Of a stretch of DNA of 64,000 nucleotides, positions 5,690 through 30,596 are shown piece after piece. The translations under genes and the position numbers were made by a program. Position 1 is the stretch's first letter, and each line of letters opens with the position of its first letter. The notes beneath the pieces are model-generated. The model did not search any database. It saw nothing but the letters and a program-made list of their open reading frames with translations, and was not told the origin of the DNA. This DNA comes from Anaerolinea thermophila (lineage in GTDB: Bacteria; Chloroflexota; Anaerolineae; Anaerolineales; Anaerolineaceae), in contig NZ_DYHZ01000002.1 of NCBI RefSeq assembly GCF_020723905.1, positions 434,001 to 498,000 on the forward strand. Reading direction: 5' to 3'.

Positions 5690-5974
5690 TTACCCTCCGG
5701 TGATGACCGACATCAAAATCAGGTGCGCACCATCTGAAGGCGTTTCATCCAGCACCATCACTGGTGTTGCCAGATCGCCGTCAATCACCAGCATATTGGA
5801 ACTCAGGAAGGACTCGCCATCAGGAGCGATCAGCCAGCCCACCAGCTGGGGAAAGCGTTTTGCCAGTTCCCGCACAATATCGCGGTAGGTAGCGCCTTCG
5901 GGCAGGTGCAGGGTGAGGGTTTTCACCCCGGCATGGGCGCGGGCGGCGCCCGTCAACTCCACGGTGATTGTCAT
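5690..5974 (-). CDS. MoaD/ThiS-family ubiquitin-like sulfur carrier
   Basis: A protein of about 94 residues with the beta-grasp pattern of MoaD/ThiS proteins and the diagnostic C-terminal Gly-Gly (MSVITGG), which is adenylated and thiocarboxylated in this family. MoaD donates sulfur to make molybdopterin. That would fit the two molybdenum hydroxylases encoded nearby, although no other Moa gene is present here, and a role in another sulfur-transfer route cannot be excluded. The ATG at 5974 was chosen because GGGAG lies 8 nt upstream; the longer frame to 6040 lacks conserved sequence. A TATACT box at 6000-5995 on this strand could be its -10. The gene is transcribed divergently from the GNAT-like gene, with operator-like sequence in the shared spacer. 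Confidence 0.75.
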   Translation of the reverse strand: MTITVELTGAARAHAGVKTLTLHLPEGATYRDIVRELAKRFPQLVGWLIAPDGESFLSSNMLVIDGDLATPVMVLDETPSDGAHLILMSVITGG

Positions 5975-6080
5975 GGCTGTATCTCCCATCTGTAAGTATA
6001 AGAGAATTTTATGGCAGTTGAGAAGAGGAAGCCTGTCCAATTTCTGTCATATGTCAGATTTTTTGGCGATAAAAATCAAA

Positions 6081-6091
6081 TTGTCTGATAA
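6081..6091. promoter_or_regulatory. Candidate operator, TTGT-N3-ATAA
   Basis: TTGTCTGATAA matches the island-wide inverted repeat TTGT-N3-ACAA with one mismatch. It ends 4 bp before the -35 box of the promoter at 6096, in the divergent spacer between the MoaD-like and GNAT-like genes. A further half-site (TGTCAGAT) lies at 6053-6060. Spacing and symmetry are typical of GntR-family operators; the regulator is unknown. Confidence 0.45.
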
Positions 6092-6095
6092 CTTA

Positions 6096-6124
6096 TTGAC
6101 TCTGCACCCTTGCTTTGCTATACT
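6096..6124 (+). promoter_or_regulatory. Sigma70-type promoter of the first GNAT-like gene
   Basis: TTGACT (6096-6101), a 17-bp spacer and TATACT (6119-6124), followed by an AGAGAGGA ribosome site and the ATG at 6164. The predicted leader is about 33 nt. This is a near-consensus promoter. Confidence 0.75.
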
Positions 6125-6163
6125 GAATTTGTTCCATCCCCTAATCTTATCAGAGAGGAAGAT

Positions 6164-6889
6164 ATGAGACTCCAACCGCCGGTAGAAGTTTCTACCAACA
6201 CTGTTTCGTTTGACGTCAGTGAAATTGAGCCTTTGCTGCAGGCTCCCCCGATGAAACTGCCCCCCTGGCCCGAGGCGCAGATCACCCTGCGCGATGGACG
6301 GATTCTCTATATCCGCCATGCGAAGGAAGAAGAAGTGCCCGAGATGCTGGCTTACATGGAGAAGGTCATGAAAGTCAACAAAGACTTTTATGACATTGTG
6401 GGCGTGCGCGTCTACGGCGAAATTTTGGGCTGGGTACGCAAACGCATTAAGGATCCCTTCACCCTGGTGGGCTTGATTGATGGCGAGTGGGTTGGCTTTG
6501 CCAATGGCCGCGTAATGAACCCGGACATTGCCATCAGCCTGCACACTATGACCTTCACCCGCCGCGGGCGTGTGGGTTGGGCAATGTATTACGCCAAAAC
6601 CTACTATGCGCTGGAAATCCTCAAGTGCAAAGAGTGGTGGTCCACCTTTGAGTCCTACAACGGCTGGCGCATGGCGGGCGTTGAAATGGCGCAACCGACC
6701 AAACCCTGGCCTGAGTACCAGCACGAACTGGGCGGCGCGCGTGTGTACTACCTGACCCAGGACATGTGGAACGCCGGTGTAAAGGACTACGCTGTTCAAA
6801 CAATCGGCTCCGACCTGTCCTTTGAGGTAACCGACGAGGTGCGCAAGGCGAACGAGCACTTCCACGCACCCGCTGAAGTGAACCTGTAA
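6164..6889 (+). CDS. GNAT-like protein, island paralogue A
   Basis: A 241-residue soluble protein. Residues from about 45 follow a GNAT-fold pattern: beta strand with YIRHAKEEEVPEM, helix, LVGLIDGEWVGFANGR as a beta hairpin, a GRVGWAMYYAK segment at the acyl-CoA pyrophosphate loop position, FESYNGW, and a final ELGGARVYYLT. This assignment is by pattern only. GNAT-fold proteins mostly transfer acyl groups from acyl-CoA, but some are decarboxylases. Its paralogue at 28875-29600 is more than half identical by eye, with identical blocks (DGRILYIR, DFYDIVG, YQHELGGARVYY), and sits at the other end of the island. It starts after a strong SD (AGAGAGGA), has its own promoter and is followed by a hairpin, so it is probably monocistronic. 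The specific function is unknown. Confidence 0.6.
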   Translation: MRLQPPVEVSTNTVSFDVSEIEPLLQAPPMKLPPWPEAQITLRDGRILYIRHAKEEEVPEMLAYMEKVMKVNKDFYDIVGVRVYGEILGWVRKRIKDPFTLVGLIDGEWVGFANGRVMNPDIAISLHTMTFTRRGRVGWAMYYAKTYYALEILKCKEWWSTFESYNGWRMAGVEMAQPTKPWPEYQHELGGARVYYLTQDMWNAGVKDYAVQTIGSDLSFEVTDEVRKANEHFHAPAEVNL

Positions 6890-6919
6890 ATCTCAGGGTT
6901 CGGGAGGATGTGAAGCCAT

Positions 6920-6966: not shown

Positions 6967-7011
6967 GTTTCCTCCTGGCAGATCATTCACATCTCCCTCG
7001 TCAATAGTCAA

Positions 7012-7022: not shown

Positions 7023-7040
7023 ATTTACGCAAAACGCAAG

Positions 7041-7069: not shown

Positions 7070-7276
7070 GAATCTGACAGGGCATCTCTTTTGTTTGCTT
7101 TTTTGACATTTTTCTGTGATGGTATTGTTTCAAGCATTGTGCTTATCCATGTTGACATTACTGGTCTCATGGTGAACCTTCTTTGAATGTCGTCTTTCGA
7201 TCGAGTATCGAAAGGGACATTTTGCTTTTCTGCAACCTGTCGGTTGCAAATAAAAAAATATTTTTGAGGAGGAGTG

Positions 7277-9004
7277 ATGGCGGCAATAAAAGTCGAAATT
7301 CGAAGCGGCGTCTATTATGATTCCGCTGTTCTGATGCAACTTCAGCGTTCTCTTGCATCCCTGCCTGGCATTGAGGATGCCGGTGTGGTGATGGGGACGG
7401 AGTCCAACAAGGAACTGCTGGCACATATTGATCTGACCACTCCCGAAGTGGAAAAAGCCCAGCCCAACGATCTGGTGATCGTTGTTCGCGGTGTGGATGA
7501 GAAAGCCGCCACTGAAGCGCTGGGAAAAGTGGATGAACTGCTCACGCGCAAGAAAGGCGGCGCCGAGCAAGCCTATCGCCCGCGCAGTATCGAGGGCGCC
7601 AACGATATGCTTCCCGAAGCCTCGTGGGTGCTGGTTTCGGTGGCGGGACGTTATGCCGCGGGTGTGGCGCGTGAAGCCATGCGCCTGGGCAAGCATGTTT
7701 TCCTCTTCAGCGATAACGTCTCGGTGGAAGAAGAGATTGCCCTCAAGCAAGAAGCCGCCGAGAAAGGTTTGCTGGTGATGGGACCCGACTGCGGAACTGC
7801 CCTGATTGGCGGGTTCGGTCTGGGCTTTGCCAATAAAGTGCGCCGCGGCAATATCGGCGTGGTGGCAGCGGCAGGCACTGGCTTACAGCATGTCACCAGT
7901 CGCATTCATCAGTTGGGTGGCGGCATTACCCACGGTATTGGCACCGGAGGGCGCGATCTCTCCGAAAAGGTGGGTGCGGTAACCTTCCGGCAGGGCATTG
8001 AACTGCTCAGCCGTGATCCTGAGACGAAAGTCATCGTGCTGGTATCGAAACCCCCTTCACCAAAAGTGGCAGAAGAAGTGCTTAAACTGGCGCGCAGAGC
8101 CGGTAAACCGGTGGTGGTCAACTTTATTGCTCGCCCGTTGAGCCTGCCGCAGATGGACAATCTCTACTTCGCCCGCGGACTGGATCATGCCGCAGAACTG
8201 GCGGTAGAACTCTCCCGCAACCTGCCCGCCCTTGAAACCGATGCAGATTTAGGCCTGGAGCGCTTTGCCGCGGGACAAAAATACCTGCGCGGGCTGTTCT
8301 CCGGCGGCACACTGGCATACGAAGCCCAGCACATCCTTGCCAGTTACCTGCCCAAGGTCTATGCCAATGCCCCCATTAACAAAGAACTCAAACTGCCCAA
8401 CAGTTATGTCAGCCAGGAACACTGCATTGTGGATCTTGGTGAAGATGAGTTCACCCAGGGACGCCTGCATCCGATGATGGACAACGAACTGCGCATTCGC
8501 CGGTTGATGGAGGAAGCCGCCGATCCTTCGGTGGCGGTTATCCTGCTGGATGTGGTGATTGGATATGGCTCGCACCCCGATCCTGCCAGCGAACTCGGTC
8601 CGGCTGTGGCAAAAGCCAAAGCCCTGGCAAAGGAAGCCGGGCGCTACCTGGAAGTGATTGCGGTGGTGTGCGGTACTGACGAAGACCCGCAGAAACTTGA
8701 AGCCCAGGTCCAGCAGATGAAAGAGGGTGGTGCATGGGTTTCCACCAGCAATGAAGAAGCCATGCGCTATGCGGGCCGTCTGGTGCGCGCTCTCAGCCAG
8801 GAAGCCGGCGGCGAATTCACCATGAAGCCGGTTGACCTGACGACTCTTCAGCGCCCGCTGGCGGCAATCAATGTGGGTCTGGAGTCCTTTGCCGAGAACC
8901 TGGCGGCGCAGGGTGCCCCGGTCATCCATGTGGACTGGCGTCCACCCGCCGGTGGGAATGAGCGTTTAATGTCCATCCTGGAGCGCATGAAACAGCGCCA
9001 GTAG
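7277..9004 (+). CDS. fdrA: FdrA family protein (AllF-like carbamoyltransferase subunit)
   Basis: A 575-residue protein related to the succinyl-CoA synthetase alpha/CoA-binding fold. Family hallmarks are VVMGTESNKELL near residues 38-48, GPDCGTA at 169-175, a glycine-rich AAAGTGLQ near 197-204, and GTGGRDLSE at 222-230. In Escherichia coli, FdrA works with DUF1116 and DUF2877 proteins as oxamate carbamoyltransferase, splitting oxalurate into oxamate and carbamoyl phosphate during allantoin fermentation. DUF1116 follows here after 36 bp, and DUF2877 lies at 29667-30596. The likely role is therefore phosphorolytic carbamoyl transfer from a ureido-type intermediate, yielding carbamoyl phosphate; the actual substrate is inferred and unknown. 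The ATG at 7277 follows GAGGAGG closely; a GTG at 7274 would also be in frame. Confidence 0.85.
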   Translation: MAAIKVEIRSGVYYDSAVLMQLQRSLASLPGIEDAGVVMGTESNKELLAHIDLTTPEVEKAQPNDLVIVVRGVDEKAATEALGKVDELLTRKKGGAEQAYRPRSIEGANDMLPEASWVLVSVAGRYAAGVAREAMRLGKHVFLFSDNVSVEEEIALKQEAAEKGLLVMGPDCGTALIGGFGLGFANKVRRGNIGVVAAAGTGLQHVTSRIHQLGGGITHGIGTGGRDLSEKVGAVTFRQGIELLSRDPETKVIVLVSKPPSPKVAEEVLKLARRAGKPVVVNFIARPLSLPQMDNLYFARGLDHAAELAVELSRNLPALETDADLGLERFAAGQKYLRGLFSGGTLAYEAQHILASYLPKVYANAPINKELKLPNSYVSQEHCIVDLGEDEFTQGRLHPMMDNELRIRRLMEEAADPSVAVILLDVVIGYGSHPDPASELGPAVAKAKALAKEAGRYLEVIAVVCGTDEDPQKLEAQVQQMKEGGAWVSTSNEEAMRYAGRLVRALSQEAGGEFTMKPVDLTTLQRPLAAINVGLESFAENLAAQGAPVIHVDWRPPAGGNERLMSILERMKQRQ

Positions 9005-9040
9005 GTTCATCCGAAATACACGAGGTTTTGGGAGGCTCTC

Positions 9041-10285
9041 ATGGTCGATATTGAAAAAGCCAATCAACAGGCTGTAGAACAAATGATGGAAGCCCGACCG
9101 GTAGTGGTGGGCGTCGCTCCGGCAATTGATGTCATCCCCGGCATGCACAGGGATTTACTGCTTCACGCCGGTCCTCCGGTGACCTGGGATCGCATGGCTG
9201 GCCCGATGAAAGGTGCCATGGTCGGCGCTTTGATCTGGGAGGGGCGTGCCAAAAACTGGGACGAAGCTGAAGCCCTGCTGAGCAGTGGCAAGATTAAATT
9301 TGAACCCTGCCATGAGCATTCTGCGGTTGGTCCCATGGCGGGCGTGATTTCCCCCTCGATGATGGTGTACATCGTGGAGAACAAGACCCATGGTAACAAA
9401 GCCTACTCCGGTTTGAACGAAGGACGCGGCAAGGTTCTGCGCATGGGCGCCTACAGCGAAGATGTGCTGGCACGCCTGACCTGGATGAACGAAGTGCTTG
9501 GTCCGGTCTCCAATGCTGCCCTGGAAGCCATGGGTGGGCTGGATCTGCGCACCCTGCTGGGTAAAGCCCTGCACATGGGTGATGATGGACACAATCGCTT
9601 GGATGCGGCTTCCATTCTTTACACTACTCAACTGGCGCCGTGGATTGTCAAGGTTGCCAAAGACAGCAATACTGCTTCGGAAGTTATCCGCTTCCTTGGC
9701 GAAAACGCCTTGAGCATTCTCAATCAGGTTATGGCGGGTTGTAAGACCATGACCGATGCCGCACATGGCATTGAAGGGTCTACCATCGTCACCGTGATGG
9801 CACGCAACGGCACCGATTTCGGTATCCGCGTCAGTGGTCTGGGTGATCGCTGGTTCACCGGACCGGCGGGCAAGGTGAAGGCACTGTACTTCCCCGGCTT
9901 TACCGAGAAGGACGCCAACCCCGATATTGGCGACAGCACCATCACCGAAACGGCGGGCATTGGCGGCTTTGCAATGGCGGCGGCTCCGGCAATCGTCACC
10001 TTCATCAGCGGTACTCCCCAGGATGCCGTCAACACCACCCTGGATATGTACGAAATTACCTACGCCGAGCACAAATACTTCACCATTCCTTACCTGAACT
10101 TCCGTGGTACGCCCACCGGTATTGATATCCGCAAGGTCATTGAGAAGAACATCCTGCCGCGAGTCAACACCGGCGTTGCCCACAAAGACCCCGGCGTTGG
10201 ACAGGTGGGTGCAGGCGTGGTGACTCCGCCCCAGAACATCTTCGAAGATGCCCTGGTGGCATTTGCGGAGCAATACGGTTTCTAG
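9041..10285 (+). CDS. DUF1116 protein (AllG/YlbE-like carbamoyltransferase subunit)
   Basis: A 414-residue protein with DUF1116 family features: HAGPPVTWDRMAGPMKGA near residues 42-59, SAVGPMAGVISPSMM near 95-108, ALHMGDDGHNR near 178-188, and the C-terminal region DPGVGQVGAGVV. In the E. coli allantoin pathway the corresponding protein is one of three subunits of oxamate carbamoyltransferase together with FdrA and a DUF2877 protein. It follows fdrA directly with a GGGAGG ribosome site, so the two are surely co-transcribed. A hairpin with eight T follows the gene, suggesting partial termination before the next gene. The family assignment is confident; the substrate is not known. Confidence 0.85.
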   Translation: MVDIEKANQQAVEQMMEARPVVVGVAPAIDVIPGMHRDLLLHAGPPVTWDRMAGPMKGAMVGALIWEGRAKNWDEAEALLSSGKIKFEPCHEHSAVGPMAGVISPSMMVYIVENKTHGNKAYSGLNEGRGKVLRMGAYSEDVLARLTWMNEVLGPVSNAALEAMGGLDLRTLLGKALHMGDDGHNRLDAASILYTTQLAPWIVKVAKDSNTASEVIRFLGENALSILNQVMAGCKTMTDAAHGIEGSTIVTVMARNGTDFGIRVSGLGDRWFTGPAGKVKALYFPGFTEKDANPDIGDSTITETAGIGGFAMAAAPAIVTFISGTPQDAVNTTLDMYEITYAEHKYFTIPYLNFRGTPTGIDIRKVIEKNILPRVNTGVAHKDPGVGQVGAGVVTPPQNIFEDALVAFAEQYGF

Positions 10286-12122: not shown

Positions 12123-12998
12123 ATGAAACCGATACCCTTTGAGTATTTTGCTCCAACCAGTACCGAAGAAGCGCTGGAACATCTGGCGAATCTCGGCTAT
12201 AACGGAAAAGTACTGGCAGGAGGGCAAAGCCTCATCCCTGCGATGAACTTTCGCATGGCGCGCCCCGGGGCACTGGTGGATTTGAATGGCATCCCCGAAC
12301 TGGCGTACATTAAACCCACTGCCGATGGCGGGCTGGCGATTGGCACCATGACCCGCGACAGCAAGGTGGAGCACAGCCCCGAAGTGGCTCAGCGCTTTCC
12401 TTTGTTGCTGGAGGTGATGCCCAATATCGCCCACCCGCAAATTCGCAACCGCGGGACCTTTGGCGGCTCAATTGCCCATGCCGACCCGGCAGGACAGTTG
12501 CCCGCGATTTCCATCGTTTTGAACGCCAATCTCAAGGTGCTTAAAAAGGGTGGGGAGCGCTGGGTCAAAGCCGAAGAGTTCTTCCTCGGTCCGTTCATGA
12601 CCGTCCTCGAGCCGGAAGAGATGCTGGCGGAAGTGGTGTTGCCCGGTTTACCCCCGCACACTGGCAGCAGTTACCAGCAGGTTTCCCGCCAGAAAGGTGG
12701 TTACTCTCTTGCAGCAGTTGCCTCGGTGGTTACGCTGGATACAGCGGGAAAATGCACCAGCGCCCGTATGGTGATGATCAGTGTAGGGGATGTGCCCATC
12801 CTTTCTGAAGCCGCCACACGCATCCTGGTTGGGCAAAAGCCTACCCCCGAAGCCATTGCCGAAGTGGCAGAGATTGCCGCCAGCAAGGAAATTGATCCCG
12901 GCACCGACATTCACGCTACAGCCGAGTACCGTCGCCACCTGGTTCGTGTGCTGGTGAGGCGGTCGCTCTCTACTGCGTTTGAACGAGCCGCAAAATAA
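12123..12998 (+). CDS. Molybdenum hydroxylase 1, FAD-binding medium subunit (CoxM-like)
   Basis: A 291-residue FAD subunit of the xanthine dehydrogenase/CO dehydrogenase family. It carries the two FAD-pyrophosphate motifs expected: AGGQSLIP near residues 36-43 and TFGGSIAHADPAGQLPA near 115-131. The second motif is the CoxM-type form. It passes electrons from the 2Fe-2S subunit encoded next to an acceptor. It forms an M-S-L operon with the two following genes; the stop codon precedes the GTG of the small subunit by 10 bp. Function: part of a hydroxylase that inserts water-derived oxygen into a carbon next to nitrogen in an aromatic ring, if it follows the usual chemistry. The substrate cannot be read from the sequence. 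Confidence 0.88.
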   Translation: MKPIPFEYFAPTSTEEALEHLANLGYNGKVLAGGQSLIPAMNFRMARPGALVDLNGIPELAYIKPTADGGLAIGTMTRDSKVEHSPEVAQRFPLLLEVMPNIAHPQIRNRGTFGGSIAHADPAGQLPAISIVLNANLKVLKKGGERWVKAEEFFLGPFMTVLEPEEMLAEVVLPGLPPHTGSSYQQVSRQKGGYSLAAVASVVTLDTAGKCTSARMVMISVGDVPILSEAATRILVGQKPTPEAIAEVAEIAASKEIDPGTDIHATAEYRRHLVRVLVRRSLSTAFERAAK

Positions 12999-13008
12999 GG
13001 AGGGAAAC

Positions 13009-13488
13009 GTGACCACGCATACGATTAAAGTCAAAGTAAATGGCGTTGAGTACGTTCGGGAAGTGGAGCCCCGCCGTCTGCTCAGTGATTTCCTCCGGCA
13101 TGATCTGGGTTTGACCGGCACGCATGTGGGTTGCGAGCATGGTCTTTGCGGCGCCTGTACCATCCTGTTTGATGGCGAGCCGGTGCGTTCCTGCCTCATG
13201 TTTGCCGTTCAGGCAAATGGACATGAGGTGACTACAGTGGAAGCGCTGGGCACTCCCGAAAAGATGCACCCCCTGCAGGAAGCCTTCCATGAGAAGCACG
13301 CCCTGCAGTGTGGATACTGCACGCCGGGTTTCCTGATGACCCTCAAACCCTTCCTCGAAACGCATCCCAACCCCACCGATGAGGAAATCCGCGAGGCGAT
13401 TGATGGAAACCTGTGCCGTTGCACCGGTTATGAACACATCATCGAAGCCGTCAAACTGGCGGCTGAGAAGATGGCTACCCGTTCGTAG
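13009..13488 (+). CDS. Molybdenum hydroxylase 1, 2Fe-2S small subunit
   Basis: A protein of about 159 residues with the two 2Fe-2S clusters of the family: a plant-ferredoxin-type cluster (CEHGLCGAC followed by a Cys in RSC) and the C-terminal helical cluster (CGYCTPGF and CRCTGY). It carries electrons from the Mo centre to FAD. I chose the GTG at 13009 because AAGGAGGG lies just upstream; an in-frame TTG at 12979 would overlap the previous gene and lacks a ribosome site. It sits in the M-S-L operon between the FAD and Mo subunits. Confidence 0.9.
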   Translation: MTTHTIKVKVNGVEYVREVEPRRLLSDFLRHDLGLTGTHVGCEHGLCGACTILFDGEPVRSCLMFAVQANGHEVTTVEALGTPEKMHPLQEAFHEKHALQCGYCTPGFLMTLKPFLETHPNPTDEEIREAIDGNLCRCTGYEHIIEAVKLAAEKMATRS

Positions 13489-16585: not shown

Positions 16586-16775
16586 TCGAAATTCCTCAAC
16601 GAAAAACGGGCATGGAGGAGACAGCGCCCGGAGAAGAGGAGAAAAGGAGGTGGTTATCGAGGGTACGTGAAGCGTTTTTCTCATCCCTGTGGGCTGGCAA
16701 ACCCACAAAGTTTTCAACCGTTTTTTCATCCAAAATCACCTGTTCCATATTTTTTCTTCGGAGGAAGGAAGTCAC

Positions 16776-19658: not shown

Positions 19659-19671
19659 GGAGGGAAGCACC

Positions 19672-20096: not shown

Positions 20097-20338
20097 GATG
20101 GTGTCCAATTGCAAAAAATCGCGAAAACAGCACTCAATGGGAACCACAGAGTTAACCTCATCGGTGCGGGAAAACCGCCCGCACGAGGAGTATTTGTTTT
20201 TTTGAGGAGGTGAAGCAGCGGAAACGGGAGAAACCGTGGGAGGAGTGCAAGATCAGGTGATGTGGAAAGATGTTTTTTCCCTGCGCTGGCAGGAGTCTTG
20301 AGAAAGACACGATCCGTTTTATAGAGAAGGAAAATCGT

Positions 20339-21272: not shown

Positions 21273-21740
21273 ATGGGTTATCACCGTATTACCTTAACCG
21301 TCAACGGAGTCATGGAACTGGTGGATGTGCCGTCCAACATGACCCTGTTACAAATGTTGCGTGAAAAACTGGGCTTGACCGGCACGAAGAATGGTTGCGC
21401 TTCGGGTGAGTGTGGTGCCTGTACCGTGATGTTGAACGGTGAACCGGTCAATTCCTGCATGGTGCTGGCTGTGGAGTGCGATGGCGCCGATGTGGTCACG
21501 GTGGAAGGGCTCGCCAAGAACGGACAACTGGACCCCTTGCAGGAAGCCATTATCGAGACGGGCGGAGTCCAGTGCGGTTTCTGCACCCCCGGTATTCTTA
21601 TTTCGTCCCGGGCGTTATTAAACCGCAAACCCAAGCCCACTGAATTTGAAATCCGGGAAGCCATCTCGGGCAACCTGTGCCGATGCACAGGCTACAACCG
21701 CATCGTCGAAGCGGTGAAAAAAGTCGCTGGAACGGAATAG
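21273..21740 (+). CDS. Molybdenum hydroxylase 2, 2Fe-2S subunit
   Basis: A 155-residue two-cluster iron-sulfur subunit. The eight cluster Cys appear as CASGECGAC plus NSC in the N-terminal ferredoxin-like domain, and CGFCTPGI plus CRCTGY in the helical domain. It relays electrons from the molybdenum centre to FAD. It follows the FAD subunit after 34 bp with a strong AGGAGG site and precedes the large subunit by 18 bp. Confidence 0.9.
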   Translation: MGYHRITLTVNGVMELVDVPSNMTLLQMLREKLGLTGTKNGCASGECGACTVMLNGEPVNSCMVLAVECDGADVVTVEGLAKNGQLDPLQEAIIETGGVQCGFCTPGILISSRALLNRKPKPTEFEIREAISGNLCRCTGYNRIVEAVKKVAGTE

Positions 21741-21758: not shown

Positions 21759-24107
21759 ATGGCAGTCGCTGAAAAACAACAAACCGTCATTGGCGCCAGT
21801 GTGCCGCGCCTGGATGTGCGCGAAAAAGTTACCGGCGCCGCGGTGTATGCCGATGACATTCAATTTGGTCCCGGATTGCTGCACTGCCGGGTGAAGCGCT
21901 CACCCATTCCGCACGGCATCATCAAGCGCATTGATACCAGCAAGGCAGAAAAATTGCCCGGCGTCAAGGTGGTCGTTACCGGTGCTGATTTCCCCGATCG
22001 AATCGGTCTGTACCTGAAAGACCGCCACATCTTCGCCCGGGACCGCGTGCGCTTTATCGGTGAGCCGGTTGCCGCCGTTGCCGCTGTGACCGAAGAAATT
22101 GCCGAGAAGGCGCTCGAACTGATTGAGGTGGAATACGAAGAACTGCCCGGTGTGTTTGATCCGGTTTACGGCGCTTCGCCGGAAGCCCCCCTTCTGCACC
22201 CCGAACTGGGCACTTACGAGTATCCCAACTTCATCTTCCCCAAACCCGGCACAAACATTGCCAACCATTTCAAGATCCGCAAGGGCGATACCGAAGCCGC
22301 CTGGCCCCAGTGCGCCGCAATTGTGGAACATACCTTCCGCATCCCGCATGTTCAACATGTCCCCATTGAACCGCATGTGGCGGTGGCAAAAGCCGAAGAA
22401 AACGGGCAGGTGACTCTGTGGGCAAGCACGCAATCGCCGTTTGCTCAGCGTGCGTTGATTGCCAAAGCCCTCCATATCCCCGAAAGCAAATTGCGGGTGA
22501 TTGCCCCGTTCGTGGGCGGTGGCTTTGGATGTAAGGCGGGTGTGACCATGGAAGCCATTCCCGTCGCCGTAGCGCTCAAACTGCCCGGTTATCCCATCAA
22601 ACTGCGCCTGACCCGCGAGGAAGAGTTCTACACCAACTTTGTCCGCCAGGGTCTGGTTATCAAGATCAAGGTCGGGTGCGATAAGGATGGCAACCTGCTG
22701 GCGCTGGAAAACACCATGTACTGGGACGGCGGCGCGTACACCGAATATGGCGTTAACGTCACCCGCGCAGGCGGTTACTCCAGCACCGGTCCGTATGATA
22801 TCCCCAATGTCAAGACCGACAGCATGTGTGTGTACACCAACCATCCAGTCGGTGGCGCATATCGCGGCTTTGGCATGGCGGAACTGCATACCGGCATTGA
22901 TCAGGCAATGGATATGCTCGCTGAGAAGATCGGCATGGACCGCGTGGAGTTCTTCAAGAAGAACTGCATCCGCGGCGGCGATGTGCTTGCCACCGGTATG
23001 GTGATTCATGATGTGGGCATCGAAGATTGTATTGATGCTGTCGCCAGAGACCTCAACTGGGGTGTGAAAGAGAAGCCCTCCGGTCCCAATAAAGTGCGCG
23101 GCAAGGGCATTGCCCTCGCCTGGAAAGCCCCGGCAATGCCGCCGAACGCAGGTTCTTCTGCCATTGTCAAACTGAACGCCGATGGCACGGTGGACGTCAG
23201 CGTGGGTGGTCAGGAGATCGGGCAGGGCACCTTTACCGTCATGGCGCAGATTGCCGCTGAGACCCTCGGTGTGCCCTATGAGAATGTGCGTGTTACCGGT
23301 CCCATTGATACCCGCTACAGCCCCTACGAGTGGCAGACGGTTGCCAGCCGCCTGACCTGGTCAATGGGCAATGCGGTGCGCAATGCGGCGCTGGATGCCC
23401 GCCAGAAGGTGCTCAACGTGGTGGCGGAAGCCTGGCAGCAGGATCCCAAAGAACTGGATATCAAGAACGGGTATGTCATTTCCTATCGCACCGAAGACAC
23501 CATGCCTCTGAAGGACGTGGTGGTGTACGGCATTCCCAAACCCAACGATCAGGGCTGGATTGGCGGTCCCATCGTCGGCACCGGCTCGTTCATGCCCACC
23601 TACGTCACCGGGCTTGACCCCGAAACCGGTCAGGGTGACCGTGCAGTGGTGCATTACACCACCGGTGCGCAAGGGGTTGATCTGGAAGTGGACCTTGAGA
23701 CCGGGCAAATCACCATCCTCAAAGCCGTTTCGGCGTTCGACGTGGGGAAAGCCATCAACCCCGAACTGGTCAAACAGCAGATGGAAGGCGGCATGGTGCA
23801 GGGGCTCAGTTCGGCACTCTTTGAGGAGTGCAAACTGGAAAAGGGTGTGATGCGCAATCCCTCCTTTGTGGATTACCGCATTGCCACCGCCATTGATGTG
23901 CCCCCCATCATGGATACCTTCATCATTGAACACGCCCAGGACGATGGTCCCTTTGGCGCGCGCGGGATCGGCGAGCATCCGCTGGTGCCGTCCATTGCCG
24001 CGGTGGCTTCGGCGTTGCATGACGCGCTCGGTATCCGCATCACCAACCCGCCCTTCAGCGCCGAGAAGGTCTATCTGGCACTAGTGGAAGCCGGACTGGC
24101 GAAGTAA
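21759..24107 (+). CDS. Molybdenum hydroxylase 2, molybdopterin-binding subunit (XDH-type)
   Basis: The catalytic subunit of 782 residues, the same length as its counterpart in hydroxylase 1 but clearly a different subgroup. Motifs are VPRLDVREKVTGAAVYADDI at the start, FVGGGFGCK, AYRGFGMAE (with the Arg-Gly-Phe-Gly form of xanthine and aldehyde oxidoreductases), GQGTFTVMAQIAAETLGV, and GIGEHPLVPS with the catalytic Glu near the C-terminus. It should hydroxylate a ring carbon of a heterocycle or oxidise an aldehyde. That the island has two distinct hydroxylases suggests two different oxidation steps or two related substrates. A terminator-like hairpin follows. Confidence 0.9.
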   Translation: MAVAEKQQTVIGASVPRLDVREKVTGAAVYADDIQFGPGLLHCRVKRSPIPHGIIKRIDTSKAEKLPGVKVVVTGADFPDRIGLYLKDRHIFARDRVRFIGEPVAAVAAVTEEIAEKALELIEVEYEELPGVFDPVYGASPEAPLLHPELGTYEYPNFIFPKPGTNIANHFKIRKGDTEAAWPQCAAIVEHTFRIPHVQHVPIEPHVAVAKAEENGQVTLWASTQSPFAQRALIAKALHIPESKLRVIAPFVGGGFGCKAGVTMEAIPVAVALKLPGYPIKLRLTREEEFYTNFVRQGLVIKIKVGCDKDGNLLALENTMYWDGGAYTEYGVNVTRAGGYSSTGPYDIPNVKTDSMCVYTNHPVGGAYRGFGMAELHTGIDQAMDMLAEKIGMDRVEFFKKNCIRGGDVLATGMVIHDVGIEDCIDAVARDLNWGVKEKPSGPNKVRGKGIALAWKAPAMPPNAGSSAIVKLNADGTVDVSVGGQEIGQGTFTVMAQIAAETLGVPYENVRVTGPIDTRYSPYEWQTVASRLTWSMGNAVRNAALDARQKVLNVVAEAWQQDPKELDIKNGYVISYRTEDTMPLKDVVVYGIPKPNDQGWIGGPIVGTGSFMPTYVTGLDPETGQGDRAVVHYTTGAQGVDLEVDLETGQITILKAVSAFDVGKAINPELVKQQMEGGMVQGLSSALFEECKLEKGVMRNPSFVDYRIATAIDVPPIMDTFIIEHAQDDGPFGARGIGEHPLVPSIAAVASALHDALGIRITNPPFSAEKVYLALVEAGLAK

Positions 24108-24272: not shown

Positions 24273-25877
24273 ATGACAGATTCCAACGTGAATGCTCAAC
24301 CGACGAGTGGGGAAGCGGAACAGATGGATGAACGCCAGCACCTGTACAAAAAACTGCAGGAATACCGCGAAAAACTTCTTGAAGCAGGTGGAAAAGACCG
24401 CATTGAAGCCCAGCATGCCAAGGGCAAATTGACGGCGCGCGAGCGCATCGAAAAATTGCTGGATGAGGGCACATTCCAGGAAATTGACGCTTTCATGGTG
24501 CACCGTCACAGCGACTTTGGTATGGACAAATCACGCTTTTTAGGCGATGGCGTGATTGCCGGCTTTGGCAAGATTGACGGCAGACGGGTGTGCGTTTTCT
24601 CGCAGGATTTCACCGTACTGGGCGGGTCCTTTGGCGAGGTCGCCGGTCAGAAAGTCTGCAAGATTCTGGACATGGCAATGGAGGCCGGCGTTCCGGTGAT
24701 CGGTTTGAACGACAGCGGCGGTGCGCGTATTCAGGAAGGCGTTCACAGCCTTTCGGCTTACGGTGAGGTCTTTTACCGCAACACCCTCGCCAGCGGCGTT
24801 ATCCCGCAAATCAGCGTAATGCTGGGACCCTGCGCGGGTGGTGCGGTGTACTCGCCAGCGCTGATGGACTTCATTATCATGACCAAAGGCATCAGCAACA
24901 TGTTCATCACCGGTCCGGAAGTTATCAAGACGGTCACGGCAGAAGTGGTGGATGCCGAGACGCTGGGCGGTGCCATGGCGCATTCAACGATCAGTGGTGT
25001 GGCGCACTTTGCCACTGAGAACGAGGAAGAATCCTTTGCCACGGTGCGGCGCCTGCTCTCGTACCTGCCGCTGAATAACGCCGAACCGGCTCCGGCAATC
25101 GAGCCGTATGATGATCCCAATCGTATGGATGAGGGCTTGAACGCCATCGTTCCGGCGAACCCCAATGAGCCTTACGATATGAAGCAAATTATCGAGAAGG
25201 TCTTCGACCTGGGTTCGTTCTTCGAGGTGCACGCCAACTTTGCCCCCAATGCCATTGTCGGCTTTGCCCGTCTGCATGGGCAATCGGTGGGTGTGGTGGC
25301 GCAACAGCCCGCCATGATGGCTGGGGCGATTGACATCAACGCCGCCGATAAAATTGCCCGCTTTGTGCGTTTCTGCGATGCCTTCAACATTCCATTGATT
25401 ACCTTCTCCGACTCGCCCGGCTTCATGCCCGGTGTGGCGCAGGAACATGGCGGCATTATCCGTCACGGTGCCAAGATCGTCTATGCCTACTCTGAGGCTA
25501 CTGTTCCGAAACTGACCGTGGTGACCCGCAAGGGCTATGGCGGCGCCTATATCGTGATGGGTAGTAAGCACATCCATGCGGATCTGGTGTTTGCCTGGCC
25601 CATGGCTGAAATTGCAGTGATGGGTGCGGAAGGTGCAGTGAACATCCTCTACCGCAAGGAAATCAGCAATCACCCCGATCCGGCGGCAGAGCGTGCCCGT
25701 CTGGTGGCGGAATTCCGCGAGAAATTTGCCAACCCGTACCGCGCCGCCGCCTCGGGTTACGTGGATGATGTCATCATGCCTTCGGAAACCCGTCCGCGTC
25801 TCATCGCCGCTCTGGAACTCCTGCGCGATAAACAGGTGAGCCAGCCCAGCAAGAAACATGGTTCCATCCCGCTGTAA
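24273..25877 (+). CDS. Acyl-CoA carboxyltransferase subunit of Na+-pumping decarboxylase (MmdA-like)
   Basis: A 534-residue carboxyltransferase with two crotonase-like halves. Features are KLTARERIEKLLDEGTF, GGSFGEVAGQK, NDSGGARIQEGVHSL (first-half CoA/oxyanion region), GPCAGGAVYSPAL, and in the second half FSDSPGFMPGVAQEHGGII and RKGYGGAYIVMGSK. This is the acyl-CoA type (propionyl-, methylmalonyl-, malonyl- or glutaconyl-CoA), unlike the oxaloacetate type. It moves CO2 from an acyl-CoA to biotin on the carrier protein encoded at 26256. With the OadG-like, biotin carrier and beta subunits that follow, it forms a complete membrane decarboxylase. The acyl-CoA used here is not known. SD GAGAGGAG precedes it. 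Confidence 0.88.
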   Translation: MTDSNVNAQPTSGEAEQMDERQHLYKKLQEYREKLLEAGGKDRIEAQHAKGKLTARERIEKLLDEGTFQEIDAFMVHRHSDFGMDKSRFLGDGVIAGFGKIDGRRVCVFSQDFTVLGGSFGEVAGQKVCKILDMAMEAGVPVIGLNDSGGARIQEGVHSLSAYGEVFYRNTLASGVIPQISVMLGPCAGGAVYSPALMDFIIMTKGISNMFITGPEVIKTVTAEVVDAETLGGAMAHSTISGVAHFATENEEESFATVRRLLSYLPLNNAEPAPAIEPYDDPNRMDEGLNAIVPANPNEPYDMKQIIEKVFDLGSFFEVHANFAPNAIVGFARLHGQSVGVVAQQPAMMAGAIDINAADKIARFVRFCDAFNIPLITFSDSPGFMPGVAQEHGGIIRHGAKIVYAYSEATVPKLTVVTRKGYGGAYIVMGSKHIHADLVFAWPMAEIAVMGAEGAVNILYRKEISNHPDPAAERARLVAEFREKFANPYRAAASGYVDDVIMPSETRPRLIAALELLRDKQVSQPSKKHGSIPL

Positions 25878-25898
25878 ACCGTTTGACGGAGGTGTTCT

Positions 25899-26246
25899 TT
25901 GAACGGTGATTTTATGCAAGGTCTGACCGTCAGCGTGCTGGGAATTCTGATCACCTTTACCGCGCTGGGGGTATTCATTCTCATTATGATTGTGCTTCAG
26001 CGGCTTTTCCCTTACCGTGAGGAAGAGGAGGAGCAGGCCGAGGTAGCGCAGATTGAAACCAGCCAGCCCGCTGAAGAAACGGGCGTTTCACAAGAGGGAG
26101 AAATCATTGCGGCAATTGCTGCGGCAGTGGCTTATTTCCGCCTGCGCGCCAACCCGCAACTGGGAAATTCCTTCCAGGAAGGACGCAGTCGCTGGTGGTT
26201 CTCCCGCCGTCTGGAAGCCATTGAAGGAAAAACGCGAAAACGCTAG
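25899..26246 (+). CDS. OadG/MmdD-like small membrane subunit, probable TTG start
   Basis: A 115-residue protein with one N-terminal membrane helix (VLGILITFTALGVFILIMIVL), an acidic linker rich in Glu, and a C-terminal segment EGEIIAAIAAAVAYFRL typical of gamma/delta subunits of Na+-translocating decarboxylases. It assembles the cytoplasmic carboxyltransferase with the membrane beta subunit. The TTG at 25899 is 6 nt from GGAGG, an ideal spacing, whereas the in-frame ATG at 25914 is 21 nt away, so TTG is preferred. It lies between the carboxyltransferase and biotin carrier genes. Confidence 0.8.
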   Translation: MNGDFMQGLTVSVLGILITFTALGVFILIMIVLQRLFPYREEEEEQAEVAQIETSQPAEETGVSQEGEIIAAIAAAVAYFRLRANPQLGNSFQEGRSRWWFSRRLEAIEGKTRKR

Positions 26247-26255
26247 GAGAAAGGC

Positions 26256-26702
26256 ATGAAGAAAATCAAGGTCATCGTCAACGAAAAACCTTATGAAGTC
26301 GAAGTGGGTGATATGAGCATTTCCCCCTTCACCGTGGTGGTGAATGGACAGTCCTATCAGGTCACGTTGGAAGGTGAACAGGTGCAGGAAGTTCGCCCCG
26401 TAGCGAGCGTTCCCACTGCTCCGGCGCCTCGCCCGGCGGCACCGGTGCCCGCTCCCGCGCCAAAACCAGCCACTGTCCCTGCTGCCAGTGGGGATGTGCT
26501 TACCGCGCCCATGCCCGGCGTCATTCTGGATATTGCTGTCAAACCCGGCGACAAGGTGACGGTTGGACAGCAGTTGTGCGCACTGGAAGCGATGAAGATG
26601 AAGAACGCCATTCGCTCACCGCGCGAAGGCACCATTGCCAGCGTGGAAGTGCAGGATGGCCAGCGCGTCAATTACGGCGAAGTCCTGTTCCGTTTCTCGT
26701 AA
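26256..26702 (+). CDS. Biotin carboxyl carrier protein of the decarboxylase (MmdC-like)
   Basis: A 148-residue protein: an N-terminal beta segment (residues 1-45), a flexible Ala/Pro-rich linker (about 50-78), and a biotinyl domain with the site EAMKM, whose Lys carries biotin, flanked by APMPGVI and the C-terminal NYGEVLF. The carried CO2 moves between the carboxyltransferase and the membrane beta subunit. The start follows TAGGAGAAAG just after the previous stop, and the next gene begins 9 bp after its stop. Confidence 0.92.
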   Translation: MKKIKVIVNEKPYEVEVGDMSISPFTVVVNGQSYQVTLEGEQVQEVRPVASVPTAPAPRPAAPVPAPAPKPATVPAASGDVLTAPMPGVILDIAVKPGDKVTVGQQLCALEAMKMKNAIRSPREGTIASVEVQDGQRVNYGEVLFRFS

Positions 26703-26711
26703 AGAGGTCGT

Positions 26712-27836
26712 ATGGATCTTTCCAATCTCAGTATCCTCTTACAGGCTGTTCGGGAACTGGGCTGGCAGAATATCGTCATGCTGGGCGTGGGCGGATTTCT
26801 CATCTTCCTCGCCGTCAAGTATGAATTCGAACCGAATTTGCTTCTGCCGATCGGTTTTGGCGCTATTTTGGGCAACCTGCCGCTCACCGGTGTGACCGAA
26901 GAAGGCGGTTTTCTGAAGACCATCTACGACTTCGGCATCAGCACCGAATTGTTCCCGTTATTTATCTTCATCGCCATTGGCGCGATGACCGATTTTGGTC
27001 CACTGCTGGAAAACCCCCGCATGGCGTTGCTGGGCGCCGCCGGACAACTTGGTATTTTCACCACCCTCCTGCTGGCTCTGCTGATTGGTTTTCCGCTCAA
27101 TGAAGCCGCATCTATTGGCATCATTGGCGCCATTGATGGTCCTACCGCCATTTATGTCTCCAGCAAACTGGCGCCGCATCTTTTACCTGCCATTACTGTG
27201 ACGGCGTACAGTTACATGTCGCTGGTACCCATCATTCAACCGCCAGTCATGCGTCTGCTCACAACCAAAGCCGAACGGCGCGTGCGCATGCCCTACACCA
27301 TCAAACCGGTTTCGCGGGTGGTGCGGGTGCTCTTCCCCATTGTGGTCACCGTTCTGGTCTCGTTGATTGCCCCGAAGGCGTCCCCGCTCATTTCCGCTCT
27401 GATGTTCGGAAATCTTATCCGCGAGTCGGGCGTGGTGGAACGCCTGAGCGAAGGTGCGCAGAACGAACTGGCGAATCTGGTTACCCTCTTCCTCGGTCTG
27501 GTGATCGGCTCGACCATGGAAGGCAGGGCGTTCATCCAGCCGCAGACGCTGGCAATTCTGGGGTTGGGTTTGCTGGCATTCATCCTTGACACCGTGGGTG
27601 GCGTGCTCTTTGGCAAGTTGATGTATGTCCTCTCCGGCAAGAAATTCAACCCCTGTATTGGCGCGGCGGGTATCAGCGCCTTTCCCATGTCGGCACGCAT
27701 TGTCCAGCGCTTTGTTTCGGAAGAGGATTTCGAGAATTTTGTGCTCATGCATGCCATGGGTGCCAATGCCGCAGGCCAGTTAGGCAGTGTGGTGGCTGGC
27801 GGCGTTGTGCTGGCGGTACTTGCGGGTGTGTTGTAA
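26712..27836 (+). CDS. Na+-translocating decarboxylase beta subunit (OadB/MmdB-like)
   Basis: A 374-residue membrane protein of the OadB/MmdB/GcdB family. Seen are many hydrophobic helices and family blocks LLPIGFGAILGNLP, GAIDGPTAIYVSS (the conserved Asp segment of the Na+ channel), SYMSLVPIIQPP, and the C-terminal GISAFPMSARIVQ and HAMGANAAGQLGSVVAGG. It couples decarboxylation of carboxybiotin to outward Na+ pumping, so acyl-CoA decarboxylation becomes an energy source in fermentation. Together with the three upstream genes it completes a decarboxylase operon, adjacent to cyclase and GNAT-like genes. Confidence 0.92.
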   Translation: MDLSNLSILLQAVRELGWQNIVMLGVGGFLIFLAVKYEFEPNLLLPIGFGAILGNLPLTGVTEEGGFLKTIYDFGISTELFPLFIFIAIGAMTDFGPLLENPRMALLGAAGQLGIFTTLLLALLIGFPLNEAASIGIIGAIDGPTAIYVSSKLAPHLLPAITVTAYSYMSLVPIIQPPVMRLLTTKAERRVRMPYTIKPVSRVVRVLFPIVVTVLVSLIAPKASPLISALMFGNLIRESGVVERLSEGAQNELANLVTLFLGLVIGSTMEGRAFIQPQTLAILGLGLLAFILDTVGGVLFGKLMYVLSGKKFNPCIGAAGISAFPMSARIVQRFVSEEDFENFVLMHAMGANAAGQLGSVVAGGVVLAVLAGVL

Positions 27837-28793: not shown

Positions 28794-28874
28794 GGGGATT
28801 CCCTCTGTTTTCTCGTGGGGAGAAACAGCGGTGTAACCGGAATTCGTTTTATTCATATCGAAAAGGAGTTCTGT

Positions 28875-29600
28875 ATGAAATTCGATCTGCCAACCAAAGC
28901 CTCTCAGGAAGTTCTCGAAATTGATGCCCGAGAAGTGGAAGCCGTTCTTCAGGGACCTTCCATGAAAATGAAGCCCTGGCCCGGTGCCATGGTGCCGTTG
29001 AAGGATGGACGCATCCTCTACATCCGCGAGGCGCGGCTGGATGAGGTGCCTTTGATGCTTTCTTACCTCAAGCGCTTCCTCGATGTGGACCATGACTTCT
29101 ATGACATTGTGGGCGCCCGCGTGTACTCCGAGGTGCTGGGCTGGTACCGCAAGCGCCTTAAGGACCCCTACACGCTGGTTGGCTTGATTGATGGCTTGTG
29201 GGCTGGCTTTGCCAACGGGCGTCTGATGAACGAGGACATCAACATCAGTCTGCACACCATGGCACTGGTGCGCGGCGGGCGCATTGGCGCTGCCATGTAC
29301 TACGCCAAGGCGTACTATGGCTTTGAAATCCTCGGCAACAAAGAGTGGTGGGCAACCTACGAGTCCTACAACGGCTGGCTCCGCTGGGGCTTGGGCATGG
29401 CGCAACCCTCTTACCCCTGGCCCGAGTATCAGCACGAACTGGGCGGCGCCCGCGTGTACTACATTACCAAGAAGTACTGGGATCAACTGGTGAAGGATTA
29501 TATTCGCCAGATGGTCGGCGCCGACCTTGACTTCAACGTGCCTGATGAGGTCCGCAAAGCCAATGAGGTGATGCGCGTCCCGGATGATATTCTGGTATAG
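28875..29600 (+). CDS. GNAT-like protein, island paralogue B
   Basis: A 241-residue paralogue of the protein at 6164-6889, the same length and more than half identical by eye. Shared blocks are DGRILYIR, DFYDIVG, LVGLIDG, GFANGR, ISLHTM, YESYNGW (FESYNGW in A) and PWPEYQHELGGARVYY. The GNAT fold assignment is by pattern. The near-perfect conservation of the YNGW and ELGGARVYY regions suggests a catalytic or binding site. The start at 28875 follows AAAAGGAG. It is downstream of the single-domain cyclase; a strong terminator lies just after. The exact reaction is unknown; acyl transfer or decarboxylation of a CoA ester are candidates. Confidence 0.6.
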   Translation: MKFDLPTKASQEVLEIDAREVEAVLQGPSMKMKPWPGAMVPLKDGRILYIREARLDEVPLMLSYLKRFLDVDHDFYDIVGARVYSEVLGWYRKRLKDPYTLVGLIDGLWAGFANGRLMNEDINISLHTMALVRGGRIGAAMYYAKAYYGFEILGNKEWWATYESYNGWLRWGLGMAQPSYPWPEYQHELGGARVYYITKKYWDQLVKDYIRQMVGADLDFNVPDEVRKANEVMRVPDDILV

Positions 29601-29620
29601 TTGACCTCTGGTTATGTGAA

Positions 29621-29652
29621 AAAGAGGGCGCCGTGAGGCGCCCTCTTTGTTT
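29621..29652. terminator. Strong bidirectional terminator at the end of the island operon
   Basis: A perfect 12-bp stem (29621-29632 with 29637-29648), GC-rich, with a GTGA loop. Its AAAGAGG/CCTCTTT ends give U-rich tails on both strands. It separates GNAT-like gene B from the convergent DUF2877 gene. Confidence 0.85.
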
Positions 29653-29666
29653 CGGATTGAGTTGCC

Positions 29667-30596
29667 TTAATGATGTGCGCGAACAGCCTGAAGCGCGCGC
29701 ATTCCTGATGCAATGCCGGTCAGGGCATCTACACCGGAGGAACTACCGTATTCCTGCAACGTATGGAGAATACCCGCTTCGTTCAGAGAGCCGGTTAAAA
29801 AGCCATCCACGGCTCGAATGAGACGCTCATCTGCGCTTCCCTCGCATGCGCAGGCAATCAGGTTGGCGCTTAATGCGGTGGTCTTCTCGAAGGCAATTTC
29901 AACCACCTGACGATGCAGGGCTTCGATGGTGTCGTGTAGCGAATTCAACCCCGGCATGCGGCTCAAGAGCAACATCAGCCCAACGATGAAATCATCTCCT
30001 GAGGGGGTAAGTCCTCTGCCTGTGCCCATCAGAGCGGTCAGGGCAGACATGCTGACTTCCACCGGCTGTGTAAAGAGATTTTTGAGAATGAGGATGTTGG
30101 CAATGGTGGACTGGAGCATGGCAGGAATGGTGGGCGGATGAGGATCGTCCATGATGAATGCCAGCATAGGGACCAGTCCAACCCCACGGTGTACATACAG
30201 GGCGCTTTCGCTCAACCGCTTTATGCTTGCCCACAGGTCTTCATTGGGAAGAATGTTTGCTGGCGGAGCAGGTGGGAGCCACAGGGTTTCTTCGCTCAGA
30301 GTGATGTGCGTATTCAGCGTGGGCAGGCTGATTTCATCGGCTTCCACGTGAACTTCCTGCCCAATATAAACGGGCAGAGGTTCAGCAGGTCTTGGAGTAA
30401 GGTTGAGCGTCAGCGGACCCCGATAGGATTCATAAGAGAGAAAGAACACCCGTTGAGGGGGGATAAGGACAAAGATCCCTTTGGAGGTTGACCCTGTAAC
30501 CCTTCCGGTAGCCGGAAAACTCAATCCTTTCAGAGCAGCATAGCCAGTGGATTCACAGCGGTACATACGGACATACGTGGCAGGGGGATTTTCCAT
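29667..30596 (-). CDS. DUF2877 protein (AllH-like carbamoyltransferase subunit)
   Basis: A 309-residue protein with the DUF2877 hallmark GTGRGLTPSGDDFIVG near residue 190 and a conserved C-terminal GVDALTGIASG. DUF2877 proteins (AllH/YlbF) form oxamate carbamoyltransferase with FdrA and a DUF1116 protein in E. coli allantoin fermentation. The other two partners are about 20 kb away at 7277-10285, on the opposite strand, so the set is complete but split across both ends of the island. It is convergent with GNAT-like gene B. The start at 30596 lacks a good ribosome site; M11 is an alternative. Confidence 0.82.
   Translation of the reverse strand: MENPPATYVRMYRCESTGYAALKGLSFPATGRVTGSTSKGIFVLIPPQRVFFLSYESYRGPLTLNLTPRPAEPLPVYIGQEVHVEADEISLPTLNTHITLSEETLWLPPAPPANILPNEDLWASIKRLSESALYVHRGVGLVPMLAFIMDDPHPPTIPAMLQSTIANILILKNLFTQPVEVSMSALTALMGTGRGLTPSGDDFIVGLMLLLSRMPGLNSLHDTIEALHRQVVEIAFEKTTALSANLIACACEGSADERLIRAVDGFLTGSLNEAGILHTLQEYGSSSGVDALTGIASGMRALQAVRAHH

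Follow-up and report, generated by a model that had tools for sequence, protein, structure and literature searches.

Oxidative pyrimidine catabolism is described, in the available text of its report, as converting uracil through barbiturate and ureidomalonate to malonate and urea by means of barbiturase, whose product is ureidomalonate, and ureidomalonase (PMC3758960). In the anaerobic allantoin/oxamate branch of E. coli (allFGHK), AllF, AllG and AllH form an oxamate carbamoyltransferase that acts on oxalurate, and carbamoyl phosphate serves as the energy currency, as stated in the accessible part of that report (PMC11326118). Here we analyzed a 64,000-nucleotide stretch of the Anaerolinea thermophila genome (contig NZ_DYHZ01000002.1, positions 434,001 to 498,000; hereafter, the window), which carries, at positions 5690 to 30596, a gene island combining these three subunits with molybdenum (Mo) hydroxylases, cyclase-family amidohydrolases, a nucleobase permease, two GNAT-type paralogues, and a predicted Na+-translocating decarboxylase (Table 1). 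The genome comprises 3.29 Mb in 13 contigs and is 99.96% complete, and the island proteins were identified by Pfam and NCBIfam profile searches. We consider that the island probably encodes a pathway that degrades pyrimidines oxidatively, conserves energy, and has two front ends in parallel.

Like the known oxidative pathway, the island would oxidize the base first, open the barbiturate ring, and pass through ureidomalonate as the proposed intermediate, and barbiturase homologues lie beside these genes in relatives; unlike it, the window has a cyclase-family candidate ring opener, a presumed phosphorolytic AllFGH enzyme in place of the hydrolytic ureidomalonase, and a predicted Na+-pumping decarboxylase. 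With the E. coli allFGHK branch it shares AllF, AllG, AllH, a carbamate kinase encoded in the genome, and carbamoyl phosphate as the likely energy currency, whereas no allantoin enzymes were found among the scanned island proteins and the proposed substrate, ureidomalonate, is one carbon longer. In the reductive uric acid pathway, the E. coli carbamoyltransferase YgeW together with carbamate kinase likewise gains ATP from a ureido group, but the substrate is a purine and the available text of that report describes no biotin decarboxylase (PMC12507026); AllFGH shows no similarity to YgeW, according to the accessible part of its description (PMC11326118). The Na+-translocating methylmalonyl-CoA/malonate decarboxylases are built from the same alpha, gamma, biotin carrier, and beta subunits, and the window's beta subunit passes the TIGR01109 cut-off, whereas its alpha subunit falls below TIGR01117, its beta subunit falls below TIGR03136, and the complex is set in a pyrimidine-type island. 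Altogether, the island is best read as a variant of oxidative pyrimidine catabolism in which a phosphorolytic step replaces the hydrolytic one and to which this lineage adds a Na+ pump. Titles and abstract openings in the literature yielded no report joining AllFGH with barbiturate or describing such a route; most subscription papers and the bioRxiv preprints were outside reach, making this weak evidence of absence.

From the gene content, we infer the following substrates and energy-yielding steps. The NCS2 permease would import the base, a Mo hydroxylase would oxidize uracil (or thymine) to barbiturate (or 5-methylbarbiturate), and a cyclase-family metal amidohydrolase would open the ring to give ureidomalonate. 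AllFGH would convert ureidomalonate and phosphate to malonamate and carbamoyl phosphate, as the E. coli enzyme does with oxalurate, and a carbamate kinase encoded outside the island would use the carbamoyl phosphate to form ATP. Malonamate could reach malonyl-CoA in two ways, through malonate with the help of a CoA transferase or in a single step catalyzed by the GNAT-fold protein, after which the biotin decarboxylase would decarboxylate (methyl)malonyl-CoA with export of Na+, giving acetyl-CoA from malonyl-CoA. Ureidomalonate (3-oxo-3-ureidopropanoate) is oxalurate plus one CH2 group; because it is the one-carbon homologue of a known AllFGH substrate, a route through ureidomalonate is likely for this enzyme. 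If this pathway exists, AllFGH would have a second role in the phosphorolysis of ureidomalonate, the island would offer candidate genes for the step ascribed to ureidomalonase, barbiturate ring opening would have an unrelated second enzyme family, and there would be a way for anaerobes and archaea to grow on pyrimidines while conserving energy at two distinct points.

Searching species genomes with both GNAT sequences, we obtained 72 GNAT loci, including several same-genome pairs, and all counts below refer to tblastn matches at E <= 1e-6 and above 50 bits. The loci span Chloroflexota, Actinomycetota (Acidimicrobiaceae), Caldisericota, Thermotogota, Spirochaetota, Auribacterota, and several archaeal groups. 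Cyclase was present in 51 of the 72, AllF in 38, AllG in 35, a Mo hydroxylase subunit in 33, AllH in 22, the decarboxylase carboxyltransferase (CT) in 16, the NCS2 permease in 12, the Na+-pump beta subunit in 9, and barbiturase in 4; at least one of AllF/AllG, cyclase/barbiturase, a Mo subunit, or CT was found at 64. A sequence-only reading of the window, made without database searches, had let its proposal of a single pathway depend on these genes traveling together, and much of the set does so in several phyla. The same queries gave no match in the 40- to 64-kb part of the window. Moreover, among 20 GNAT-positive genomes without AllF or AllG at the fetched loci, 17 have AllG elsewhere. In 400 genomes of the host's phylum, AllG was found in 71 and strong GNAT matches in 6, all of them AllG positive (the count excludes G078, with a match at E 6e-4 containing four stops). 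We also inspected 40 AllG neighborhoods from 37 of the 71 AllG-positive genomes, chosen from the same family, order, class, and part of the phylum rather than at random: cyclase and a Mo subunit occurred together in 22, ArcC in 11, GNAT in 3, and CT in none. These counts indicate that the AllG-cyclase-Mo group extends beyond the GNAT variant; in the sampled loci, the decarboxylase accompanies only the latter. The gene set is real and widely conserved.

The link to pyrimidines comes from relatives. Four Acidimicrobiaceae loci (L049, L051, L052, and L080) carry a barbiturase-type enzyme between CT and AllH, along with GNAT, AllF, AllG, and a Mo hydroxylase, and no cyclase was found in them. Their barbiturase-type genes represent one gene cluster type, for which the Pfam assignment was made on the L049 copy and the PDB comparison on the L051 copy; the latter scored 573.8 bits to PDB 5hwe ("Barbiturase") versus 311.7 to the highest-scoring cyanuric acid hydrolase. 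In none of the 72 GNAT loci do cyclase and barbiturase occur together; in these relatives, barbiturase takes the place of the cyclase. The GNAT copies of the barbiturase loci group with a Chloroflexota copy (L050; support 99/67) from what we define below as module B, as if, judging from the tree, the GNAT gene had been transferred into a barbiturase-using host.

Barbiturase (PF09663) was detected in 18 of 296 genomes sampled from the phylum of L051, and 17 neighborhoods were fetched, the eighteenth genome (G400) being that of L051. Thirteen of these hold actinobacterial barbiturase-like genes with at least 60% identity, two of them on short contigs (L128, 3 kb; L121, 10.5 kb). Within about 10 kb around the 13 genes we found AllF in 7, AllG in 7, AllH in 5, and ArcC in 9, with any of these in 10 of 13, while none of the four was near any of four distant PF09663 homologues. 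In Embleya (L183), an NmrA-like protein, a relative (63%) of the L051 CT, ArcC, barbiturase, a Mo hydroxylase, and a permease lie together. In three loci from Auribacterota, a uridine phosphorylase gene is located next to that of the cyclase, above its cut-off of 280.3 bits in L059 (297.5) and just below it in L069 (276.7) and L077 (270.7). Furthermore, a cytosine-deaminase-like gene (below its cut-off) was present in 4 of the 72 GNAT loci and a BMP-type substrate-binding protein in 9, and an archaeal locus (L100) joins GNAT, a CoA transferase, a carbamate kinase above its cut-off, AllF, a Mo hydroxylase, and a BMP-type transporter. The barbiturase, uridine phosphorylase, and cytosine-deaminase-like neighbors thus back the pyrimidine-type substrate that had been guessed from the sequence.

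In the window, all three AllFGH subunits exceed their profile cut-offs, with identities to the E. coli proteins of 39% for AllF, 48% for AllG, and 25% over 194 residues for AllH, and the enzyme is predicted from this similarity to form carbamoyl phosphate. The neighbors of E. coli fdrA are allE, allC, and allD; no member of the allantoinase, allantoate amidohydrolase, or ureidoglycolate dehydrogenase families was found among the scanned proteins of the island, to which that search was confined. The absence of a carbamate kinase and of a CoA-activating enzyme from the window, remarked on earlier, holds for the two families searched, carbamate kinase and PF01144 CoA transferases (the searches did not extend to CoA ligases or to further families of CoA transferases). 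Both families are encoded on contig C9, carbamate kinase above its cut-off at C9:146911-147846 and the genome's only PF01144 pair at C9:107301-108831, with 42% and 44% identity to the archaeal island pair.

The island consists of two paralogous modules. Module A comprises the GNAT protein u259, AllF, AllG, the tandem cyclase, Mo hydroxylase 1, CoxG, and the permease; module B, which elsewhere is not always complete, comprises Mo hydroxylase 2, the Na+ decarboxylase, a cyclase, the GNAT protein u261, and AllH. In relatives the modules lie on separate contigs or apart, and in the window they are joined. A tree was built from 69 of 74 fetched GNAT rows (at least 225 aa) plus the two window copies, an alignment that also served for fold prediction. 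With module labels assigned by the analyst and 34 of the 71 rows unlabeled, the A (20 rows) and B (17 rows) copies were separated by one change (support, 84/96; recovered in 87% of bootstrap trees; none of 500 shuffles gave so low a number), and u259 falls in the module A group. A Thermoflexia-type compact set (L057, L058, and L062) unites AllF, AllG, cyclase, GNAT, permease, and Mo hydroxylase. In the window, AllF and AllG are confined to module A and AllH to module B, so a single enzyme is probably common to the two modules. Two modules and a methylmalonyl-type alpha subunit together suggest uracil and thymine branches, and we infer that modules A and B may serve these two bases.

Among the 17 distinct tandem cyclase sequences, the window's included, every N domain lacks three of the four metal ligands and every C domain keeps all four, at columns of PF04199 proteins that we take to be metal binding. 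Judging from this pattern, the tandem cyclase is a fixed pseudoenzyme-enzyme fusion. The single-domain cyclase has intact metal ligands, and its closest solved relatives are kynurenine formamidases, weakly similar at E 2.8e-6; the tandem cyclase does not qualify as a kynurenine formamidase, with 52 bits to TIGR03035 against a cut-off of 223.05.

The Mo subunits of the two Mo hydroxylases are 31% identical to each other. That of hydroxylase 1 has its best PDB match in CoxL (525 bits), followed by quinoline 2-oxidoreductase (485 bits), and reaches the cut-off of none of the NCBIfam models listed; that of hydroxylase 2 best matches 4-hydroxybenzoyl-CoA reductase (348 bits). CO-oxidizing enzymes have a Cys-bearing loop, and the corresponding loop of hydroxylase 1 reads RGAGRPE. 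Assignment of hydroxylase 1 as CO dehydrogenase was rejected (NF040766, 831.9 versus a cut-off of 950; TIGR02416, 549 versus 991.15), as was that of both enzymes as xanthine dehydrogenase (NF043082, 426.2 and 529 versus 780).

Neither u259 nor u261 has a Pfam match at E <= 1. An AlphaFold model of u261 (71-row alignment) reached a pLDDT of 90.5 and a pTM of 0.87, and matched 8gxk_D (VIA) with Z 15.0 and a root mean square deviation (rmsd) of 3.0 over 171 aligned residues and 1yre_B, a CoA complex, with Z 14.9 and rmsd 2.8 over 170. On this model u261 has a GNAT fold; u259 is regarded as a GNAT-type paralogue through its identity with u261, and acyl-CoA transfer may be the activity of both. The families named in the sequence-only reading are thereby all accounted for, by profile matches or, for the GNAT pair, by modeling of u261. 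A role of the GNAT protein like that of malonyl-CoA decarboxylase (MCD) gained no support, although it may still apply: MCD and CurA were not among the 50 matches listed in each structural comparison. A further possibility, which we regard as doubtful, is that the GNAT family drives amide chemistry to CoA, converting malonamate or methylmalonamate and CoA to (methyl)malonyl-CoA and ammonia. The product would enter the Na+ decarboxylase, so that uracil and thymine would be fermented in a closed route that gains energy by substrate-level phosphorylation via carbamoyl phosphate and by the Na+ pump, and in which a CoA ligase is not needed. The gene context suggesting it is that GNAT is the sole conserved member without an assigned step in the compact clusters of L057, L058, and L062, and that it adjoins CT without AllF or AllG beside it in L082, L087, and L102, with the same cluster in L039. 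At L136 (G168:C5), the GNAT gene is interrupted by an in-frame stop and has cyclase, AllG, AllF, and Mo genes as neighbors, which may reflect decay of the GNAT step.

The CT of the island is the only PF01039 match in the genome. It scored 802.4 against the methylmalonyl-CoA decarboxylase model MmdA (TIGR01117; cut-off, 998.8), and the beta subunit lies below the cut-off of the malonate-specific TIGR03136 and passes the curated Na+-pump model TIGR01109. From these family assignments, the complex encoded at 24273 to 27836 is predicted to couple acyl-CoA decarboxylation to Na+ transport. The L051 CT is AccD/AccA-like, which points to malonyl-CoA.

We regard it as unlikely that the island is merely two or more unrelated catabolic modules side by side, for instance one module for pyrimidines, a Mo-hydroxylase pathway of its own for another heterocycle such as a purine, and a general methylmalonyl-CoA decarboxylase. 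Modules A and B do lie apart in other genomes, their divergent Mo subunits have different nearest solved structures, and the decarboxylase is missing from most GNAT loci and from the 40 AllG neighborhoods; the division of a probably shared AllFGH between the modules argues against such an assembly, as do the cyclase and GNAT copies of the same families in both, the adjacency of GNAT and CT in several phyla, and the fact that no second CT exists in the genome. The single compact pathway proposed at the outset stands in part, with co-travel and pyrimidine neighbors in its favor; its front end is two paralogous modules that are separate elsewhere, and the beta subunit (9 of 72 GNAT loci) and CT (0 of 40 AllG neighborhoods) are not regular members. 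A purine (allantoin/oxalurate) branch, with AllFGH acting on oxalurate and the Mo hydroxylases serving as xanthine dehydrogenases, appears highly improbable. It fits the membership of AllFGH in the oxamate carbamoyltransferase family (available text of PMC11326118), the scores of the Mo subunits against xanthine dehydrogenase models, albeit below cut-off, and an XdhC-like gene in 5 of the 72 GNAT loci, and it is opposed by the lack of allantoin-enzyme families among the scanned island proteins and by barbiturase and uridine phosphorylase in relatives. Opening of another cyclic imide or ureide, for example hydantoin or an s-triazine, is also quite improbable: PF04199 is a broad family and the single cyclase is only distantly related to solved formamidases, but the enzyme found in place of the cyclase has a much higher score to barbiturase than to cyanuric acid hydrolases.

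Several observations weigh against the oxidative pyrimidine pathway that we favor. The host genome has no PF09663 match, the same search having found none in 14 controls either and 18 in the 296 others, and it encodes a D-hydantoinase/dihydropyrimidinase-type protein (L212, G000:C13; 536 bits, cut-off 393), around which no pyrimidine genes were evident by eye in the list of open reading frames (ORFs); with the one absent and the other present, a reductive route is possible. Neither GNAT nor CT was found close to any of the 13 actinobacterial barbiturase-like genes, a Mo large subunit lies near 1 of them and any Mo subunit near 4, and Nonomuraea (L182) has only an L051-type CT and, 13 kb off, a barbiturase. 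Eight of the 72 GNAT loci, 4 of them at least 10 kb long, lack AllF/AllG, cyclase/barbiturase, the Mo large subunit, and CT, and three Thermotogota genomes (L065, L086, and L103) have a GNAT gene without AllG. The rarity of the beta subunit at GNAT loci and the absence of CT from the chosen AllG neighborhoods belong here too, and no malonamate amidase turned up, no search aimed at one having been made. The presence of carbamate kinase was rejected as evidence, because it exceeds the cut-off not only in 23 of 25 GNAT-positive genomes but also in 18 of 20 from the phylum that are AllG negative (these 20 being nearest kin rather than a random draw); a look at four genomes (4 of 4) had seemed supportive, and only adjacency of ArcC counts. 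Finally, AllFGH lies beside biuret genes in nitrifiers, according to the available text of PMC12625717, so that finding it does not by itself point to barbiturate.

Table 1. Features of the gene island, with window coordinates and the supporting matches (bit scores, with profile cut-offs where given)
Feature	Position	Strand	Evidence
MoaD/ThiS-like sulfur carrier	5690..6040	-	PF02597 24.7 bits, cut-off 22.5
GNAT-type protein u259, module A copy	6164..6889 (alternative TTG start 6110)	+	58% identity to u261
AllF/FdrA carbamoyltransferase subunit	7274..9004	+	NF004760 562.4 bits > 433
AllG/DUF1116 carbamoyltransferase subunit	9041..10285	+	PF06545 320.4 bits > 27
Tandem cyclase-family amidohydrolase, 557 aa	10364..12037	+	PF04199 in two stretches, 194 bits > 23.1
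Mo hydroxylase 1 FAD subunit	12123..12998	+	PF00941, PF03450
Mo hydroxylase 1 [2Fe-2S] subunit	12979..13488	+	PF01799, PF00111
Mo hydroxylase 1 Mo subunit	13506..15854	+	PF20256, PF02738
CoxG-like Mo-enzyme accessory protein	15921..16544	+	PF06240 91.5 bits
NCS2 nucleobase permease	16689..18191	+	PF00860 178.6 bits; TIGR00801 197 < 291.8
NmrA-like NAD(P)-binding protein	18300..19169	+	PF05368
Mo hydroxylase 2 FAD subunit	20270..21238	+	PF00941, PF03450
Mo hydroxylase 2 [2Fe-2S] subunit	21273..21740	+	PF01799, PF00111
Mo hydroxylase 2 Mo subunit	21759..24107	+	PF02738, PF20256
Na+ decarboxylase carboxyltransferase (CT, alpha)	24273..25877	+	PF01039 650 bits
Na+ decarboxylase gamma subunit	25899..26246	+	PF04277 53.6 bits > 27
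Biotin carrier (BCCP), EAMKM motif in translation	26256..26702	+	PF00364 72.9 bits
Beta subunit, Na+-translocating carboxybiotin decarboxylase	26712..27836	+	PF03977 508 bits; TIGR01109 444.2 > 190.6
Single-domain cyclase-family amidohydrolase, 293 aa	27912..28793	+	PF04199 104 bits > 23.1
GNAT-fold protein u261, module B copy	28815..29600	+	no Pfam match; predicted GNAT fold
AllH/DUF2877 carbamoyltransferase subunit	29667..30596	-	PF11392 78.9 bits > 25

As in the window, a MoaD/ThiS homologue lies upstream of the GNAT gene in L067, L068, and L094. Antisense to u259 runs a minus-strand ORF (6047-6865) without a Pfam match. Homologues of the NmrA-like protein were found in 6 of the 40 AllG neighborhoods, in 2 of the 17 PF09663 neighborhoods, and in L183, and in 0 of the 72 GNAT loci. 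Between the modules, the 19170-20022 segment holds two small ORFs of 162 and 116 aa, which have no Pfam match above cut-off and no homologue in the 72 GNAT loci. The EAMKM motif of the biotin carrier is presumably the biotin-carrier signature.

Of three PF01048 matches in the host genome, one is a purine nucleoside phosphorylase above its cut-off, one is below every cut-off listed, and one (L204) resembles methylthioadenosine (MTA) phosphorylase by eye; a uridine phosphorylase in this genome is thus unsupported. At L065, a cyclase fragment is present and CT lies about 4 kb further on. In L038, L047, and L056, an aldehyde-ferredoxin-oxidoreductase-like cluster (189 bits for the L047 copy, far below the cut-off) stands beside a BMP-type transporter and GNAT; its protein is perhaps an electron partner or catalyzes a further oxidation step.

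Outside the island, the sole Rfam match in the window is a T-box leader on the minus strand (38851-39163; 111.8 bits), upstream of tryptophan-operon-type genes at 32188-38813 (anthranilate synthase to tryptophan synthase). Genes for a Mrp-type Na+/H+ antiporter, one of whose subunits is a fusion with MbhD and MbhE domains, occupy 40837-45902 on the minus strand, and this antiporter is a possible partner for the Na+ decarboxylase.

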